Below, one piece after another: positions 23,218-30,051 of a DNA stretch of 64,000 nucleotides. The stretch comes from Bordetella ansorpii (GTDB lineage: Bacteria > Pseudomonadota > Gammaproteobacteria > Burkholderiales > Burkholderiaceae_B): assembly GCF_900078705.1 (NCBI RefSeq), contig NZ_FKIF01000009.1, forward strand, positions 124,001 to 188,000, in the 5' to 3' direction. The notes below the pieces were generated by a model. The model was not told the origin of the DNA. It did not search any database and saw only the letters and a list, made by a program, of their open reading frames with translations. A program made the translations under genes and the position numbers. Numbering within the stretch: the stretch's first letter is position 1; the number at the start of each line of letters is the position of its first letter.

Positions 23218-23760
23218 GATGCTGGGCGTGGATAGAGGCAAAGTGGCAGTTTATGGGAAGGATGCTGGCATCTGGGGGGTTGGCCGGGTTTGTCCTATGT
23301 GCCCAGGTCAGGCGTGGATTTTCCATGCGTGAAAGGTTTGAGTTCTTGAGCGCCGGGGGCATCGCTGCGAAGCACGGCGGGCCACGCGGGAATCAGCCCA
23401 GCCTTAGCCCCGACTACGATTGCACCCAACGAAGCACGGCGACACGCCATCGCATGTTTTCCGATCCCCCAAGGCGCTGACGACAGACACTGCCCATGAC
23501 CGCCAGCCCCCGGATGGATCACTGCTTTCACCCGCCCTGACGCACTAAAAAGAACGTGTTTTGCAAGTCGGCCGCATTGCTCGGATGTGAGCCGCGGGCG
23601 TGCCGGAGAAGTCACGCCCGGAGCGCGAAAGCGCGAGGACGGGACTTCGCAGGCACGCCCGCGGCGCCATAAAGAACAAGATACCCCCGCCATACCCCAG
23701 CCGTCTTTACCCCATCGGAAAGAAAACCCGCTTGCCGACACCGTCACTAAAAAACCCAGT
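23218..23760. other. 543-base intergenic region upstream of argE
   Basis: No gene is supported. Several open frames cross it, but none shows family motifs or consistent third-position bias. It holds the argE promoter region near its left end, which I cannot define with confidence, and a complete copy of the dispersed stem-loop element at 23591-23665. The remainder, between about 23290 and 23580, shows nothing I recognise. Confidence 0.6.
23591..23665 (+). repeat. Dispersed stem-loop element, copy 1
   Basis: Perfect 14-bp outer stem GCCGCGGGCGTGCC / GGCACGCCCGCGGC. Inside it lies GAAGTC pairing with GACTTC, and an apical GCGC-GAAA-GCGC tetraloop hairpin. The inner 46-odd bases are almost identical to copy 3 (29471-29555) and closely related to copy 2 (29270-29344, inverted). 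Just beyond the outer stem comes AAGAAC, as in the other copies. It lies between relA and argE, antisense to both. Confidence 0.85.
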
Positions 23761-25998
23761 TCAGCGCCGGTCCGCCCCCGACACGCCGGGAACGGCCCGC
23801 AGCGCATCCAGCGCACGGCCGAGCGCCTCGCCGTCCCGCACCTCGACCGTGAAGACCATGTGCGCCAACGACTGCCGGCTCTGGGTATTGACGCCGACCA
23901 CGTTCAGGCGCAGCCGCGCAAAGACTTCGGAGAGGTCGCGCAGCAGGCCGGGGCGGTCGTGGGCGCGCACGCTGATGTCCACCGGATAGACCGTGTCGGC
24001 CGTCTGGCCCCAGGCCACGTCGATCACCCGCTCGGCCTCGCGGGCGGCCAGGGCGAGGTAGCTCGGGCAGTCGGCGCGGTGGATGGAAACGCCGCGGCCA
24101 CGCGTGACGAAGCCGGCGATCGCGTCCGGCGGCGCGGGGCGGCAGCAGCGGGCCAACTGGGTCATCAGCGAGCCCACGCCCACCACCAGCACCCCGCTCT
24201 TGCCGCCCGCCGTGACGCTGCCCGCGCCCGGCGCGTTGGCATGGCGCAGCGCGTGCGGCTGGGGTTCCACGACCGGCGCCGGCTGCTGGAACACGGCGTC
24301 GATCTGGCGCAGGCTGAACTCTTCCTTGGCGGCGGCCACATACAGGTCGTCGGCGCGGGCGAAGCCCAGCGTCTGCGCAAGCTGTTCCAGGTTGACCGCG
24401 GTCTTGCCCAGCCGCTGCAGTTCCTTTTCGACCAGCGCCTGGCCTTGCGTGATGCGCTGCTGCAGCTCGATGGCATTGAACCAGGCGCGCACCTTGGCGC
24501 GCGAGCGCGGCGCGGCCAGGTAGCCCAGTTGCGGGTTGAGCCAGTCGCGCGACGGGCCGCCCGCCTTGGCGGAAATGATCTCGACCGTCTGGCCCGTGGC
24601 CAGCCGCGTATGCAACGGCACCATCTGGCCATCGACCCGCGCGCCGCGGCAACGGTGGCCCAGGTCGGTATGCAGGTGATAGGCGAAGTCGACCGCCGTG
24701 GCGCCCTCGGGCAGCTCGATCACGCGCGCCTGCGGCGTCATCACGTAGATGCGGCCATCGCCGGTGTGCGTGGCGGCATCGGGCGCATCGTGGCCTTCCG
24801 CGGCCCCGACGTCGGCGCCCCAGGCCAGCAGTTGCCGCATCCACGCCAGTTGGCGGTCGTAGTCGCTGGAGGCCGCCACCTGGCCGCCGCGCGCGCCGGC
24901 TTCCTTGTAGCGCCAGTGCGCGGCCATGCCGTACTCGGCGAACTGGTGCATCTCGCGCGTGCGGATCTGCACCTCGAACGGCCGGCCGTCGTCATCGCTG
25001 ACCACCGTGTGCAGCGAGCGGTAGCCATTGGGCTTGGGCCGCGAGATGTAGTCGTCGAAGGCCTCGGGAATGGGCGCCCACATTTCGTGCACCAGGCCCA
25101 GCACGGCGTAGCAATCGCGCACGTCCTCGACGATGACGCGCAGCGCGCGCAGATCGAACAGTTTCGAGAAATCCAGCGTCTTCACGCGCATCTTGTTCCA
25201 GATGCTGTAGATGTGCTTGGGCCGCCCGCTGACCTCGGCGGTGATGCCCGCGCCCTCCAGGGCGGCGCGCAGGCGGTCGATGGCGGCCGCGATGAAGGCC
25301 TCGCGCTCGGCGCGCTTCTCTTCCAGCAGCCTGGCGATTTCCTTGTAGCGCATGGGTTCGAGGAAACGAAACGCCAGGTCTTCCATCTCCCATTTCAGTT
25401 GCCAGATGCCCAGCCGGTTGGCCAGCGGCGTGTACAGGTCGAGGGTCTCGCGGGCGAAGGCCGGATCGCACGGCGCCTTGGTCTCGGCATGCCAGCGCAG
25501 GGTCTGCAGGCGCGAGGCCAGGCGCATCAGCACGATGCGCAGGTCGGCCGCCATGGCCAGCAGCATCTTGCGCTGCATCTCTTTCTGGCTGCCGGTATCG
25601 GCCGAGGCATCGCTGGCCTGCCGCGCCACCGCGCCCAGGCGCAGCAGCGCGCGGGCGCCATGCACCAGGCGCGCCACTTCGGGCCCGAACTCGGCCGCGA
25701 TGGGATCATTGCGCGGCGGCGGCACGGGCGCCATCGGGTCGTGCGGCAGCGAGACCAGCAAGGCGGCGGCGCGCGTCGCGGCGTCGGTCTGCAGGCGAGC
25801 CAAGAGGCGCGTCACGCCCACGGCATGCGTGCGCAGGGGCTCGCCCGTCAGCGCCACCTGGCCGTCGAAGCGCGGCTCGGCCCAGGCGGCGGCCCGTTCG
25901 ACCAGGCGCGCGCCGTCTTCGTCGAGCCCCTGCACGGCGGCCTGGCGCCAGGCGGCGTCGAACGGACCGGGCAGAACGGGATCGGTGGAGGCGGACAT
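23761..25998 (-). CDS. relA: GTP pyrophosphokinase RelA
   Basis: Makes (p)ppGpp when ribosomes stall with uncharged tRNA. The 745-residue protein has an N-terminal pseudo-hydrolase domain in which the HD pair is degenerate (LLVSLPHDPMAP). The synthetase domain is intact (GRPKHIYSIWNKM, FDLRALRVIV, KPNGYRSLHTVV). Next come a TGS domain (VMTPQARVIELPEGATAVDF), a conserved ARCCRP cysteine motif with GFVTRGRGVSIHRADCPSYL, and a C-terminal ACT domain. The loss of HD residues marks it as RelA rather than bifunctional SpoT. The start at 25998 (MSASTDP) is an ATG; the TTG at 26028 is less likely. Confidence 0.93.
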   Translation of the reverse strand: MSASTDPVLPGPFDAAWRQAAVQGLDEDGARLVERAAAWAEPRFDGQVALTGEPLRTHAVGVTRLLARLQTDAATRAAALLVSLPHDPMAPVPPPRNDPIAAEFGPEVARLVHGARALLRLGAVARQASDASADTGSQKEMQRKMLLAMAADLRIVLMRLASRLQTLRWHAETKAPCDPAFARETLDLYTPLANRLGIWQLKWEMEDLAFRFLEPMRYKEIARLLEEKRAEREAFIAAAIDRLRAALEGAGITAEVSGRPKHIYSIWNKMRVKTLDFSKLFDLRALRVIVEDVRDCYAVLGLVHEMWAPIPEAFDDYISRPKPNGYRSLHTVVSDDDGRPFEVQIRTREMHQFAEYGMAAHWRYKEAGARGGQVAASSDYDRQLAWMRQLLAWGADVGAAEGHDAPDAATHTGDGRIYVMTPQARVIELPEGATAVDFAYHLHTDLGHRCRGARVDGQMVPLHTRLATGQTVEIISAKAGGPSRDWLNPQLGYLAAPRSRAKVRAWFNAIELQQRITQGQALVEKELQRLGKTAVNLEQLAQTLGFARADDLYVAAAKEEFSLRQIDAVFQQPAPVVEPQPHALRHANAPGAGSVTAGGKSGVLVVGVGSLMTQLARCCRPAPPDAIAGFVTRGRGVSIHRADCPSYLALAAREAERVIDVAWGQTADTVYPVDISVRAHDRPGLLRDLSEVFARLRLNVVGVNTQSRQSLAHMVFTVEVRDGEALGRALDALRAVPGVSGADRR

Positions 25999-26076
25999 TG
26001 CGCGCGGCGTAGACGGACTGAGGGACAATTTTCTAACTCTACACTAGAGGTCCGAAGCAACCCCAGGAATCCCATC

Positions 26077-26910
26077 ATGTTCCGATGGCTGCGCGGCCGA
26101 GGAGCCGCCGCCCCCGACGTGGCCGAGATGCAGGCCCGCATTCCCGACGACCTCTGGCAGCGGGTGCTGTCGGCCTATCCGTTCCTGGCCCCGCTCGCGG
26201 CGCCCGAGCGCGAGCAGTTGCGGGCGCGCTGCGCCTGGCTGCTGGCCAGCAAGAACCTGAACGGCGCGCGCGGCCTGGATCCCACGGATTTCATGCGCCT
26301 GGCGATCGCCGCGCAGGCCGCCCTGCCCATCCTGCACCTGTCGCCGTCGCTGTACGAGGGCTGGGACGAGATCATCCTCTACCCCGAAGGCTTCTCCATC
26401 CCGCGCCGCCAGATGGACGAGGACGGCGTGGTGCACGAATACGTGGAAGAGGCGGCCGGCGAGGCCTGGGACGGCGGGCCGGTCGTGCTGTCCTGGAGCG
26501 ACCCCGATCCCGAGGCCGGCGCCTTCAACGCGGTCATCCACGAATTCGCCCACAAGCTCGACCTGCACGCGGGCCAGGCCGACGGCATGCCGTCGCTGGC
26601 GGCCCATCCCGACATCAAGCCGCGCGTGTGGCGGCAGGTGCTGGCGGACAGCTACGACCGCTACGTGGCCGCGCTGGAGGCGGTGGAAGCCGCCATTGCG
26701 CCCGACGTCGACCCCGAAAGCGAAGACGCCGACGCCTGGTACGCCAGCCTGCCGCTGGACCCGTACGCCGCCACGGACGAGGCCGAGTTCTTCGCGGTCA
26801 GCTCCGAGCATTTCTTCATCGATCCGCTGCCGCTGGCGCAGGCGCTGCCCGACTGGCATGCCCTGCTGCGGGCCTACTACCGGCAGGACACCCTGGCGCG
26901 GCTGGCGTGA
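26077..26910 (+). CDS. mtfA: MtfA zinc peptidase (Mlc titration factor family)
   Basis: 277-residue M90 metallopeptidase. The HEFAH zinc motif is at 156-160 (VIHEFAHKLDLHAG), with the downstream glutamate in DEAEFFAVSSEHFF. In E. coli MtfA binds and titrates the repressor Mlc; in other bacteria its partner is unknown. It is divergent from relA with only 78 bases between starts. Its stop overlaps the start of the following gene (GTGA). Confidence 0.92.
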   Translation: MFRWLRGRGAAAPDVAEMQARIPDDLWQRVLSAYPFLAPLAAPEREQLRARCAWLLASKNLNGARGLDPTDFMRLAIAAQAALPILHLSPSLYEGWDEIILYPEGFSIPRRQMDEDGVVHEYVEEAAGEAWDGGPVVLSWSDPDPEAGAFNAVIHEFAHKLDLHAGQADGMPSLAAHPDIKPRVWRQVLADSYDRYVAALEAVEAAIAPDVDPESEDADAWYASLPLDPYAATDEAEFFAVSSEHFFIDPLPLAQALPDWHALLRAYYRQDTLARLA

Positions 26911-27416
26911 AGACGCTGCTGATCGTCTGGCATTCGCGCACCGGCGCGGCGCGCGCCATGGCCGCCGCGCTGGAGCGCGGCGCCCGCCATGCCGCCCGTG
27001 AACTGGACGCCGCGCCGCACCTGGCGGTGGTGCGCCGGCGCGCGGGCCGAGCCCAGCCCGGCGACGTGCTGAAAGCCGATGGCTACCTGTTCTGCGCGCC
27101 CGAGAACCTGGGCACGCTCAGCGGCGAGATGAAGGAATTCTTCGACCGCGCTTATTACCCGGCGCTGGACCGCATCGCGGGCCGGCCGTATGGCCTGGCG
27201 ATCAGCGCGGGCACCGACGGCTCGGGCGCGGCGCGCCAGGCCGAGCGCATCTGCACCGGCTGGCGCCTGCGCGCAGTGGCGCCGGCGCTGGTGGCGCGCA
27301 ATGGCGCGCAGACACCCGAAGCGATCATGGCCGCCAAGACAGTGCCGGCGGCCGTCCTCGCGCAATGCGAGGAGCTGGGCGGCCTGCTGGCCGCCACCCT
27401 GCTGGCGGGCCTCTGA
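26907..27416 (+). CDS. Flavodoxin-fold NAD(P)H-dependent oxidoreductase-like protein
   Basis: 169-residue protein beginning KTLLIVWHSRTGAARAMAAAL, a flavodoxin-like first strand and phosphate-binding loop. It has FCAPENLGTLSGEMKEFFDRAYY in the middle, typical of the NADPH-dependent FMN reductase/flavodoxin group that includes WrbA-like proteins. The GTG start is inside the mtfA stop codon, so the two are coupled. Function beyond likely FMN binding is unknown. Confidence 0.8.
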   Translation: MKTLLIVWHSRTGAARAMAAALERGARHAARELDAAPHLAVVRRRAGRAQPGDVLKADGYLFCAPENLGTLSGEMKEFFDRAYYPALDRIAGRPYGLAISAGTDGSGAARQAERICTGWRLRAVAPALVARNGAQTPEAIMAAKTVPAAVLAQCEELGGLLAATLLAGL

Positions 27417-27553
27417 CGCGGCTGCGTGCGGGCGCCGGCCGGTTTTCGCCATGCCGCCGCCGGGGATCCCGTGGCGTCCGGGCGGTATCGCCGACACCCG
27501 GCCCTGCGGCGCAGCCAGCCCAGGCGCCCCGAGGAGCGCCTCGTATTTCCTGC

Positions 27554-27907
27554 TCAGGCGATGGCCGCCGTGACGACGATCTCGACCTTGTAGTCGGGAT
27601 TGGCCAGGCGCGCCTCGACGGTGGCGCGCGGGGGCGAGTTGCCGTCGGCCACCCAGGCGTCCCAGGCCTTGTTCATGCCGTCGAACTCCTTCATGTTGGT
27701 CACGAAGATCTGGGCCATCAGGATCTTGGTCTTGTCGGTACCGGCTTCGGCCAGCAGGCGGTCGATGGTGGCCAGTACCTGGGCCGTCTGGCCGGTGATG
27801 TCCAGCGTCGCGTCGTCCGGCACCTGGCCGGCCAGATAGGCCACGCCGTTGTACACGGCCATGTCGGACAGGCGCTTGGCGACGTTGAAACGCTTGATGC
27901 TGCTCAT
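27554..27907 (-). CDS. RidA family protein (YjgF/YER057c/UK114)
   Basis: 117-residue trimeric fold protein; RidA proteins hydrolyse reactive enamine/imine intermediates. Visible are AVYNGVAYLAGQVPDD, ITGQTAQVLATIDRLLAEAG and a C-terminal SPPRATVEARLANPDYKVEI. The arginine of PRATVEARL is the expected carboxylate-binding residue. The start at 27907 gives MSSIKRF. It lies 52 bases downstream of pncB on the same strand, so the two may be co-transcribed. It is one of several RidA subfamilies, so I give no symbol. Confidence 0.9.
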   Translation of the reverse strand: MSSIKRFNVAKRLSDMAVYNGVAYLAGQVPDDATLDITGQTAQVLATIDRLLAEAGTDKTKILMAQIFVTNMKEFDGMNKAWDAWVADGNSPPRATVEARLANPDYKVEIVVTAAIA

Positions 27908-27959
27908 GAAGACTTCCCCTTGCGGAAGAGAGTTTGCGGAAAAAGGACTGCGCGCCGCC

Positions 27960-29138
27960 TTACGCGGGCGCCAACTGGAAGACCTGGCGCAGATAGGCCA
28001 GATAGGCCGGATCGTCGCACATGGTCTTTTCGGGCGCATCGGACACCTTGGCCACCGGCTGGCCATTGCAGCGGACCATCTTCATGACGATCTGCAGCGG
28101 CTCGTGGCCCAGGTCGTTGGTCAGGTTGGTGCCGATGCCGAACGATACCTTGCAGCGCCCGGCGAAGCGGCGCGCCAGTTCGATGGCGCGCGGGAAGGTC
28201 AGGCCGTCGGAGAACACCAGGGTCTTGGCGCGCGGATCGGTGCGGTTGGCGCGGTAGTGTTCGAGCATGCGCTCGCCCCACGTGAAGGGATCGCCCGAAT
28301 CGTGGCGCGCGCCGTCGAACAGCTTGCAGAAATACATGTCGAAGTCGCGCAGGAACGCATCCATGCCGTAGACATCGGACAGCGCGATGCCCAGGTCGCC
28401 GCGGTATTCCTTGGCCCACACCTCGAACGCGAACACCTGCGAATCGCGCAGCCGTGGCCCCAGCGCCTGGCAGGCCTGCAAGTACTCGTGGCCCATGGTG
28501 CCCAGCGGCAGCACGCCGTGGCGCATGGCCAGCAGCACGTTGCTGGTGCCGGCGAAATGCCTGCCCATCTGCGTCTTCATGGTGGTCACGACTTCCTCGT
28601 GCCACATCCTGGAATAGCGCCTGCGCGTGCCGTAGTCGGCCACGCGGAAGTCGGCCAGCTCCGGATCGTCCAGCACCAGGTGCATCTTGGACTGCAGCCG
28701 GCTGCGCCCTTCTTCCCAGTCCGCATCCTTGCTGGTGTTGCGGAAGTAGACCTCGTTGACGATGGCCAGCACCGGGATCTCGAACAGGATCGTGTGCAGC
28801 CAGGGCCCCTCGACCGAGATGAAGATCTCGCCCGGATGATCGGGGTCGGGACTGACGGTGATGCAGCGTTCGGGCAGGTGGAACAGCCCCAGGAAATCGA
28901 CGAAGTCGCTCTTGATGAACCGCAGGTTGCGCAGGTACTCGAGCTCGGCCTCGGTGAACCGCAGTTGGCACAGATGCCGGATTTCCGCGCGGATCTCTTC
29001 CAGGTACGGACGCAGATCGATGCCGGGCGTGCGGCACTTGTAGCGGTACTGGACCTGGGCAGCGGGGAAATGGTGCAGCACGACCTGCATCATGCTGAAT
29101 TTGTACAGGTCGGTGTCGAGCAGCGAAGTGATTATCAT
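27960..29138 (-). CDS. pncB: Nicotinate phosphoribosyltransferase
   Basis: Converts nicotinate and PRPP to nicotinate mononucleotide in NAD salvage. The 392-residue protein starts [18 protein letters not shown], the family signature. It has the [23 protein letters not shown] segment with the catalytic histidine, [20 protein letters not shown] and [12 protein letters not shown]. The ATG at 29138 is chosen; the frame continues upstream through a copy of the stem-loop repeat and is non-coding there. Confidence 0.96.
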
Positions 29139-29269
29139 GATCGCGCGATTCGTTTCGGCAACCATATCACAGGAGGGGGCTTGCGAGGGCGGGGCCCTCG
29201 CGCTCCCCTGGGGTATTGTTTCTTGCCGTGGTTTGCGTGGTGATGCGGCGGCGTAATCGTTCTTCTGCC

Positions 29270-29344
29270 GCAGCAATCGCCCCTGCGTAGTCACGTCCTC
29301 GCGCTTTCGCGCTGCGGGCGCGACTACTCCGGAGCGCTTGCTGC
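29270..29344 (-). repeat. Dispersed stem-loop element, copy 2 (inverted)
   Basis: Read on the minus strand, the outer stem is GCAGCAAGCGC / GCGATTGCTGC with one mismatch. The inner stem is GTAGTC / GACTAC and the apex is GCGC-GAAA-GCGC. Compared with copies 1 and 3 (GAAGTC / GACTTC), both sides of the inner stem have changed together, keeping the pair. AAGAAC follows the stem. It lies 132 bases upstream of pncB in the sense direction. Confidence 0.85.
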
Positions 29345-29470
29345 TCCCGACGGAGTACGGTGTCGCGCTGCTTTTCACGACCTCCAAGGTTCGTGATGCA
29401 TATCTCCATGGGTACGAACTGTGGCCAAAGAAATGTGTTTGTGCGGCGCCTGGAATTTAGACGGCTTGAG

Positions 29471-29555
29471 CCGGGAGCATTGCGGAGAAGTCACGCCCGG
29501 AGCGCGAATGCTGCGCTCGCAGCGCGAGGACGAGACTTCGCAGTTGTGCTCCCGG
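29471..29555 (+). repeat. Dispersed stem-loop element, copy 3
   Basis: The outer stem is CCGGGAGCA / TGCTCCCGG and the inner stem GAAGTC / GACTTC. The apical hairpin is longer than in the other copies (CTGCG-CT-CGCAG insert). The left core half (29484-29508) is identical over 25 bases to copy 1 and the right half differs at one base in 21. AAGAAC follows. It lies 172 bases upstream of fdxA in the sense direction. Confidence 0.85.
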
Positions 29556-29727
29556 TGCGCAAGAACTCGAATCGAGGCACAAAAGAAACCCCTATATCGT
29601 TGTCAAGTTCGCAACAATGCATCCCACGACATCGACACACCCATTGTTGGGGCGGGGTTATGATCGTGCCGCCTTGGCGCATTAGGTAAAATCTTTCAAT
29701 TACGCGCCGCCTGTCCGGAGTTCCTGA

Positions 29728-30051
29728 ATGACCCACGTAGTCACCGAAAACTGTATCAAGTGCAAATACACGGATTGTGTGGACGTTTGCCCGGTTGACT
29801 GTTTTCGCGAGGGGCCGAACTTCCTGGTGATCGACCCCGACGAGTGCATCGACTGCGCCGTCTGCATCCCGGAGTGCCCGGCCAACGCCATCTATGCCGA
29901 AGAAGACGTGCCGCAGGACCAGATGAAGTTCATCGCCCTGAACGCCGAACTGTCCGCCGATTTCCCCAGCATCAGCCGCGCCAAGAAGCCGCTGGCCGAC
30001 GCCGACGCGTGGAACGGCAAGGAAGACAAGCTGCAGTACCTCGAACGCTGA
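29728..30051 (+). CDS. fdxA: 7Fe ferredoxin FdxA
   Basis: Small soluble electron carrier with one [3Fe-4S] and one [4Fe-4S] cluster. The 107-residue protein has [17 protein letters not shown] and [17 protein letters not shown], plus the long C-terminal tail typical of Azotobacter-type FdxA. It is followed 44 bases later by a ferredoxin-NADP reductase gene, its natural partner. Confidence 0.96.

Follow-up and report, generated by a model that had tools for sequence, protein, structure and literature searches.

The locus and its repeat copies

The 64,000-nt stretch of DNA analysed here (hereafter the window, G000:C9:124001-188000, G000 being the host genome) comes from contig NZ_FKIF01000009.1 of Bordetella ansorpii and carries three copies of a hairpin repeat. 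This repeat represents a family of chromosomal, non-coding hairpins of about 95 nt, located between genes of Bordetella and relatives and often arranged as back-to-back pairs. The neighbours of copy 1 are two minus-strand predicted genes, presumably resembling spoT/relA and argE, while copies 2 and 3 form a doublet between two divergent predicted genes (27960-29165 on the minus strand and 29728-30051 on the plus strand), which we take to resemble pncB and a ferredoxin gene; these names were assigned from the translations, and all gene contexts given below come from a home-made codon-bias gene caller, not from annotation.

The three copies had been reported in an earlier note made from the sequence alone, and the observation is confirmed by a covariance model (CM), R1, built from 21 copies (alignment A2, sequence-based), which retrieves three strong copies in the window (Table 1). 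Rows at 49, 38 and 27 bits are reverse-strand shadows of these copies, and R1 detects no other strong copy in the window, the remaining rows lying at about 15 bits or less. The core pattern matches twice in the window against a mean of 0.00 over 100 shuffles, which is not chance, and the fold z-scores of the three copies are -7.7, -5.2 and -3.0. Without the 12-base apical insert of copy 3, the cores of copies 1 and 3 are identical at 47 of 48 positions (45 of 46 by the earlier count). The change of the inner stem from GAAGTC/GACTTC to GTAGTC/GACTAC and the AAGAAC motif behind every copy were likewise read correctly. Concerning the outer stems, which had been described as unrelated in sequence yet paired within each copy, the pairing stands: copy 1 has 14 perfect pairs, copy 2 has 7 + 6 pairs with one mismatch, and the outer stem of copy 3 can pair by eye if G.U pairs are included, its minimum-energy fold being different because of the apical insert. 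The stems are not unrelated, however; they fall into two related types, A and B, whose letters change fast. A decayed partner of copy 1 was also recognised, which is weak on its own (15.0 bits at 23338-23418, E 0.34).

Table 1. Coordinates of the repeat copies and their parts in the window, and of three copies elsewhere with a closed G.A loop
Feature	Position	Strand	Score or basis
Copy 1, full hairpin element, type B	23587-23679	+	CM 107.6 bits, E 2.2e-22
Copy 2, full hairpin element, type B, left half of the -/+ doublet	29256-29348	-	CM 98.4 bits
Copy 3, full hairpin element, type A, apical insert	29466-29570	+	CM 86.8 bits
Doublet spacer, 117 nt, with the 5' leaders of copies 2 and 3 inside	29349-29465		gap between copies
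Apical insert (12 bases) in copy 3, position uncertain within a few bases	29509-29520	+	alignment
AAGAAC tail motif, copy 1	23672-23677	+	sequence
AAGAAC tail motif, copy 2	29259-29264	-	sequence
AAGAAC tail motif, copy 3	29561-29566	+	sequence
Decayed partner of copy 1, type A 3' half	~23337-23418	-	string 23337-23372 and alignment
Copy with G.A loop closed as in template switching	L069:2462-2554
Copy with G.A loop closed as in template switching	L092:2802-2894
Copy with G.A loop closed as in template switching	L094:2465-2557

Architecture of the element

From 5' to 3', the hairpin is composed of a variable outer stem, a CGGAG/CGCAG loop (a G-C pair between two G.A-type mismatches), a nine-position inner stem, a mismatch facing an A, two base pairs, the asymmetric loop NSA/GA and an apical hairpin with an optional insert; the 3' side continues with AAGAAC and an A/C-rich tail, the 0-60 nt behind the element being rich in A and C and poor in G and T. 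The internal loop GGA/GCA is kept in 59 of 65 copies, a set that includes, owing to the threshold, one of the five copies of genome G012. It is the outer stem that distinguishes type A from type B, and the unit of the family is a doublet of an A and a B hairpin pointing apart, with the 3' AAGAAC tails outward. Indeed, all 22 close pairs in the three main genomes (G000, G004 and G011) are in -/+ orientation, with gaps of 46-502 nt, and 20 of them are A/B pairs (18 by a one-base score and two orthologous ones judged B by eye on the whole stem); the other two are A/A pairs and orthologues of each other. Twenty-one entries were scored as single, one of which (L075) has a partner just under the threshold. 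Among the three singles that were compared with an orthologous pair, L071 and L083 retain a remnant of the partner and L087 retains none.

In a second group of copies, subfamily II, the doublets are arranged in alternating arrays with a unit of ~272-285 bp (loci L171, L175, L180, L181, L182, L184, L194, L200, L201 and L204). At some type I loci, the tail is itself repeated in tandem: six more AAGAAC-bearing units of ~18 bp were seen at L101:7690-7820, three more 23-bp units and a degenerate one at L091:2380-2490, and about one more 41-bp unit at L100:2400-2510.

Distribution of the family

The earlier note had proposed a search for further genomic copies, and these are present in the host and in related genomes. 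After removal of shadows, 18 copies (11 loci) were counted in G000, 20 in G011 (B. ansorpii) and 26 in G004 (B. genomosp. 13). Among the 15 genomes of the genus that were searched with R1 at E 1e-4, rows were obtained in G000 (22), G004 (35), G011 (25) and G012 (3) and none in the other 11; five copies were found in G012 among the fetched loci at a looser threshold. The exact core pattern was matched only in Bordetella ansorpii and Bordetella genomosp. 13 in a scan of 84,980 named species genomes, from which the window's own genome may be left out. In the searches over 40 genomes, the best 10-15 candidates per genome were scored, so that weak matches may escape and the following counts are minimum values: R1 at E 1e-6 found the repeat in at least 4 of 268 family genomes; a second model, R2, which includes the divergent G012 copies, found it at E 1e-4 in at least 2 of 399 order genomes, namely the host's own and G029, from another genus; and a third model, R3, built on seven G012 and G029 copies (subfamily II), found it in at least 25 of 268 family genomes and 4 of 43 genera. 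Three of these 25 are the type I carriers G000, G004 and G011, probably as cross-hits, and at least 22 further genomes remain. Type I is thus narrow, and subfamily II, which was inspected at a selection of loci, is broader, with the same layout and a different core (CCGAAGC ... CGAGCATCGG). No match to copy 1 or to one subfamily II unit was found in plasmid and phage records. The three covariance models can be used to find more members of the family.

Covariation of the stems

The stems covary beyond shuffled and slid controls. In alignment A2 (21 copies), 97.1% of 588 cells are paired, against 83.2% in shuffled alignments and 29-44% with slid structures; the covariation score is 0.404, against 0.130 in shuffles and at most 0.069 with slid structures; and two-sided change affects 80 cells, against 23.9 in shuffles. 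As the copies are related, these controls are comparisons and not probabilities. In a second test, every copy was compared with each of its orthologues in 20 groups (1116 cells). Where neither side had changed, 937 cells were paired and 5 unpaired; where one side had changed, 54 were still paired via G.U and 48 were broken; and where both sides had changed, 61 were still paired and 11 unpaired, independence predicting 13.6 such cells in all. The further copies and the covarying stems support the reading of a dispersed element, similar to repetitive extragenic palindromes (REPs) or to miniature inverted-repeat transposable elements (MITEs), that is under structural constraint.

Strand preference of the fold

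Were the DNA palindrome itself what is preserved, G.T and A.C mismatches should be found in equal numbers, since a G.T on one strand reads as A.C on its complement. With each orthologue group and position counted once, there are 62 G.T against 9 A.C (p 7e-11 if independent); without the three richest positions, the counts are 22 and 7 (p 0.008). In subfamily II (68 distinct copies), G.T is found in 81 cells and A.C in 2, or 28 and 2 without the three richest positions. The raw excess is inflated, since the pairs were chosen by RNAalifold, and the counts without the richest positions are fairer. In the flanks of the same copies (first two members per group, alignments of at least 40 columns and at least 75% identity), transitions are unbiased (C/T 66, A/G 67), and the imbalance among transversions (A/C 62, G/T 19) is in line with the A/C-rich tails. 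Furthermore, in 28 of 35 groups the fold of the sense strand is the more stable of the two, the mean difference being 4.1 kcal/mol. As the two halves of a doublet face opposite ways, no single transcript and no single replication strand can account for the bias. Covariation that is strand-specific and includes G.U pairs, a criterion of structured RNA, was found, in pairs whose choice favours G.U. Most likely, selection acts to keep each hairpin's sense strand, in the form of either RNA or single-stranded DNA.

Gain, loss and the search for a mover

Sites that are filled in one species are empty in sister species, which means that copies have been gained or lost. G000, G011, G007 and G010 lack the doublet that G004 carries at L098, and at the corresponding intergenic site their genes are only some tens of bases apart; G005 also has the L098 flanks without the insert, and was not in the alignment. 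The single copy of L079 is absent from the orthologous sites in G000 and G004, the G004 site holding other sequence, and the single copy of L106 is absent from those in G000, G011 and G010. The L079 copy (L079:2440-2583, a single hairpin in B. ansorpii) shares 91-93% identity over 141-148 bases with the elements of L088 and L074, and this likeness suggests that a single hairpin unit can probably be copied too. No target-site duplication was recognised in the three comparisons of filled and empty sites, whose intergenic sequences have diverged too far for the ends to be placed.

Inverted pyrimidine-rich and purine-rich tracts lie outside the doublet at the filled site of G004 (L098:2450-2468 and 2818-2832) and are absent from the empty sites, and a similar long tract is present on one side at L100. 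These G/A-rich inverted tracts were considered as general terminal repeats and rejected, as they do not occur on both sides in the other tails listed.

A REP-associated tyrosine transposase (RAYT) was rejected as the mover: no Y1_Tnp domain (PF01797) was found at E up to 10 in the carriers G000, G004, G011 and G012 (the last 77% complete) by a search that does detect the domain in control genomes, genera g4 (probably Achromobacter), g16 and g31 lying outside this search. Its absence from these four carriers points to a mover of another sort. At eight subfamily II loci, no transposase was recognised by eye in the first 60 residues of the predicted open reading frames, no family search having been run.

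Gene context

The contexts of 42 type I groups (G000, G004, G011) and 31 subfamily II loci, with L173, L185, L188, L196 and the first doublet of L197 excluded, were reduced to 37 orthologue sets (21 of type I and 16 of subfamily II) clustered on flanks only. Nineteen sets are tandem, 15 convergent and 3 divergent; convergent exceeds divergent in all sets taken together (p 0.0075) and in subfamily II (8 to 0, p 0.008). All three divergent sets are of type I (3 of 21), the window doublet among them. For comparison, the intergenic gaps of more than 100 bp in the window are divergent in 8 cases, tandem in 11 and convergent in 2. REPs, too, are described as lying mostly between tandem and convergent genes (PMC3733652). 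Such a location is compatible with a function at transcript ends, and just as well with the avoidance of promoters.

Interpretation

The family, its doublet rule, the covariation, the strand bias and the lean towards gene ends are best brought together, in our view, by larger doublets resembling those of REPs (REPINs, REP doublets forming hairpins) that are mobile as DNA and whose resident hairpins are kept by selection on the sense-strand fold, with a role of the RNA at transcript ends. The balance for this reading is about even; confidence is moderate because the window doublet, between divergent genes, misfits and because the RNA step is one that we infer. As the doublets, arrays and empty sites show, the element is mobile as DNA; it spreads at a low rate, in the form of doublets, tandem arrays of doublets and sometimes single hairpins, and would probably be moved by an enzyme acting in trans. 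Each resident hairpin would then be kept by selection on its own sense-strand fold, that is, an outer stem that must pair, the G.A/A.G loop, the inner stem, the mismatch opposite A and the NSA/GA loop. The selected molecule would most likely be RNA, from transcripts that run past gene ends into a sense copy, and the stable hairpin with its A/C-rich tail could act as a transcript-end or RNA-protecting structure. Such action would be two-way, because a doublet holds one sense copy per strand: in a doublet between convergent genes, a transcript arriving from either side would first run through the near copy in antisense and only afterwards through the far copy in sense, followed by the A/C-rich tail of the latter.

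Several points weigh against this reading. No mover was found, and the strand bias, measured on pairs that RNAalifold selects with G.U but not A.C allowed, does not tell RNA from single-stranded DNA. In type I alone, convergent and divergent sets number 7 and 3 (p 0.34), and a transcript-end role makes little sense for the window doublet. Furthermore, in 16 of the 20 type I singles the tail faces the 3' end of a gene running the opposite way, whose transcript thus contains the copy in antisense. Upstream of the hairpins, promoter-like sequences were not in excess when scored with crude weights based on E. coli. The number of pairs with two-sided change, a weak control, is 12, which 17 of 500 shuffles reach, and the cells and comparisons behind the covariation are not independent. 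Finally, template switching within hairpins could give part of the paired change: in 3 of 65 copies the G.A loop has been closed, one arm having apparently been copied onto the other (Table 1), and orthologue group g11 has five double changes and no single one.

A narrower version, in which RAYT-free, REPIN-like doublets consist of two structured RNA motifs, each selected in place, form a two-way transcript boundary and depend on a novel mover, is considered unlikely. If it were true, a mobile repeat would give one sense copy to each of two opposing transcripts. REP-like repeats are common, and whether selection on them concerns the RNA, single-stranded DNA in the course of mobility, or neither of the two becomes testable here because stems change fast, internal loops are nearly fixed and orthologous copies in three species undergo paired change in place with a strand bias.

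A possible, though less probable, alternative is that the repeat is purely mobile DNA without host function, its hairpins being recognition sites for a structure-specific transposase acting on single-stranded DNA, as in the logic of REPINs. The doublets, the arrays, the empty sites, the partner remnants at two of the three singles examined and the patchy distribution (at least 4 of 268 genomes with the type I model and at least 25 of 268, three type I carriers included, with that of subfamily II) are all consistent with this, as is the strand-specific fold, and inverted doublets, tandem arrays and compensatory changes are also described for REPINs (PMC3116915). However, pure mobility does not require that orthologous resident copies keep pairing in place, as they do, and neither the Y1_Tnp search of the four carriers nor the inspection by eye of the eight subfamily II loci, with the limits given above, revealed a transposase.

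As a further alternative, two divergent promoters in the doublet spacer could drive outward transcription of small RNAs that act in trans. This is improbable: the sense strand folds better and the orientation is outward in 22 of 22 pairs, but the best upstream promoter score is 3.4, against 3.8 in shuffles and 3.9 on the other strand (with the same crude weights), and up to 26 copies per genome, with diverging stems and no match in Rfam, speak against such genes. No U-run of an intrinsic terminator was seen by eye on either strand. Of the two possibilities raised in the earlier note, the REP/MITE-like element is supported and a stand-alone small RNA gene so far is not, and the interpretation given there is, overall, partly supported. 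Paired changes arising mainly by mutation, through template switching at imperfect palindromes in functionless DNA with strong dyad symmetry, would explain the three closed loops and the clustered double changes of g11 and are nevertheless hardly probable, as this process should remove the conserved mismatches, which 59 of 65 copies retain, and offers no explanation for the excess of G.T over A.C.

Comparison with described repeats

The Betaproteobacteria toxic small RNA (RF02278), which had been suggested for comparison, gives no covariance-model match at the elements. No Rfam family matches at gathering score in the window or in ten subfamily II loci, and none of the six matches obtained up to E = 10 in 23500-29700 lies at an element. 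No description of this repeat was found in a literature search, with most subscription papers and all supplements outside its reach.

The architecture is similar to that of REPINs and of bacterial interspersed mosaic elements (BIMEs). As in REPINs (Bertels and Rainey 2011, PMC3116915; Nunvar 2010, PMC2817692), two inverted repeats are separated by a short spacer (22 of 22 pairs), and as in BIMEs, units are clustered in alternating orientation, here at subfamily II loci. In contrast to REPINs, which are mobilised by RAYTs, each half is here a ~95-nt hairpin with nearly invariant internal loops, copies number in the tens, no GTAG foot or tag was seen and no Y1 transposase was found in the four carriers; membership of the REPINs is therefore not claimed.

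The GTAG and CGTC superfamilies of REPs (PMC3733652) share with this family palindromic intergenic units, inverted dimers and a location mostly between tandem or convergent genes, and CGTC repeats also occur without a dedicated transposase. In that source, REPs measure 20-40 bp, and CGTC repeats have stems of 8-9 bp, loops of 4-5 nt and a CCA-like tail. Here, CGTC lies inside the core, on the complementary strand, and not at the foot. An assignment to either superfamily was rejected, as by eye the foot has no unpaired GTAG or CGTC and consists of GAGCC ... GGCG, followed by AAGAAC in most copies.

ERIC/IRU and other hairpin MITEs (Delihas 2007, PMC2229807) are also intergenic, of ~100-200 bp, with a long stem-loop in transcripts; the present element differs in being a doublet of two hairpins in which no target-site duplication was recognised. 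In Bordetella itself, Bor repeats of 26-30 bp and the Bor-1 models of 93 and 117 nt are described for B. pertussis and B. bronchiseptica (PMC1590033, PMC2267715). They are likewise structured intergenic repeats, compared here by description and not by consensus; R1 and R3 have no match in G008, a genome that likely belongs to the B. pertussis group and stands here for the species with Bor-1. BRE, another intergenic Bordetella repeat of ~90 bp and thus similar in size and location, was found through bprJ transcripts (Hot 2011, PMC3110155), is tandem and is present in B. pertussis, B. avium, Polaromonas, Delftia and others. In G008, a tandem GC-rich repeat of ~80 bp follows directly after lexA (L108:872-1031) and is probably the published BRE, judging by its position, length and tandem copies. 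It shares only 9-base words with the present element, and BRE was rejected as its identity.

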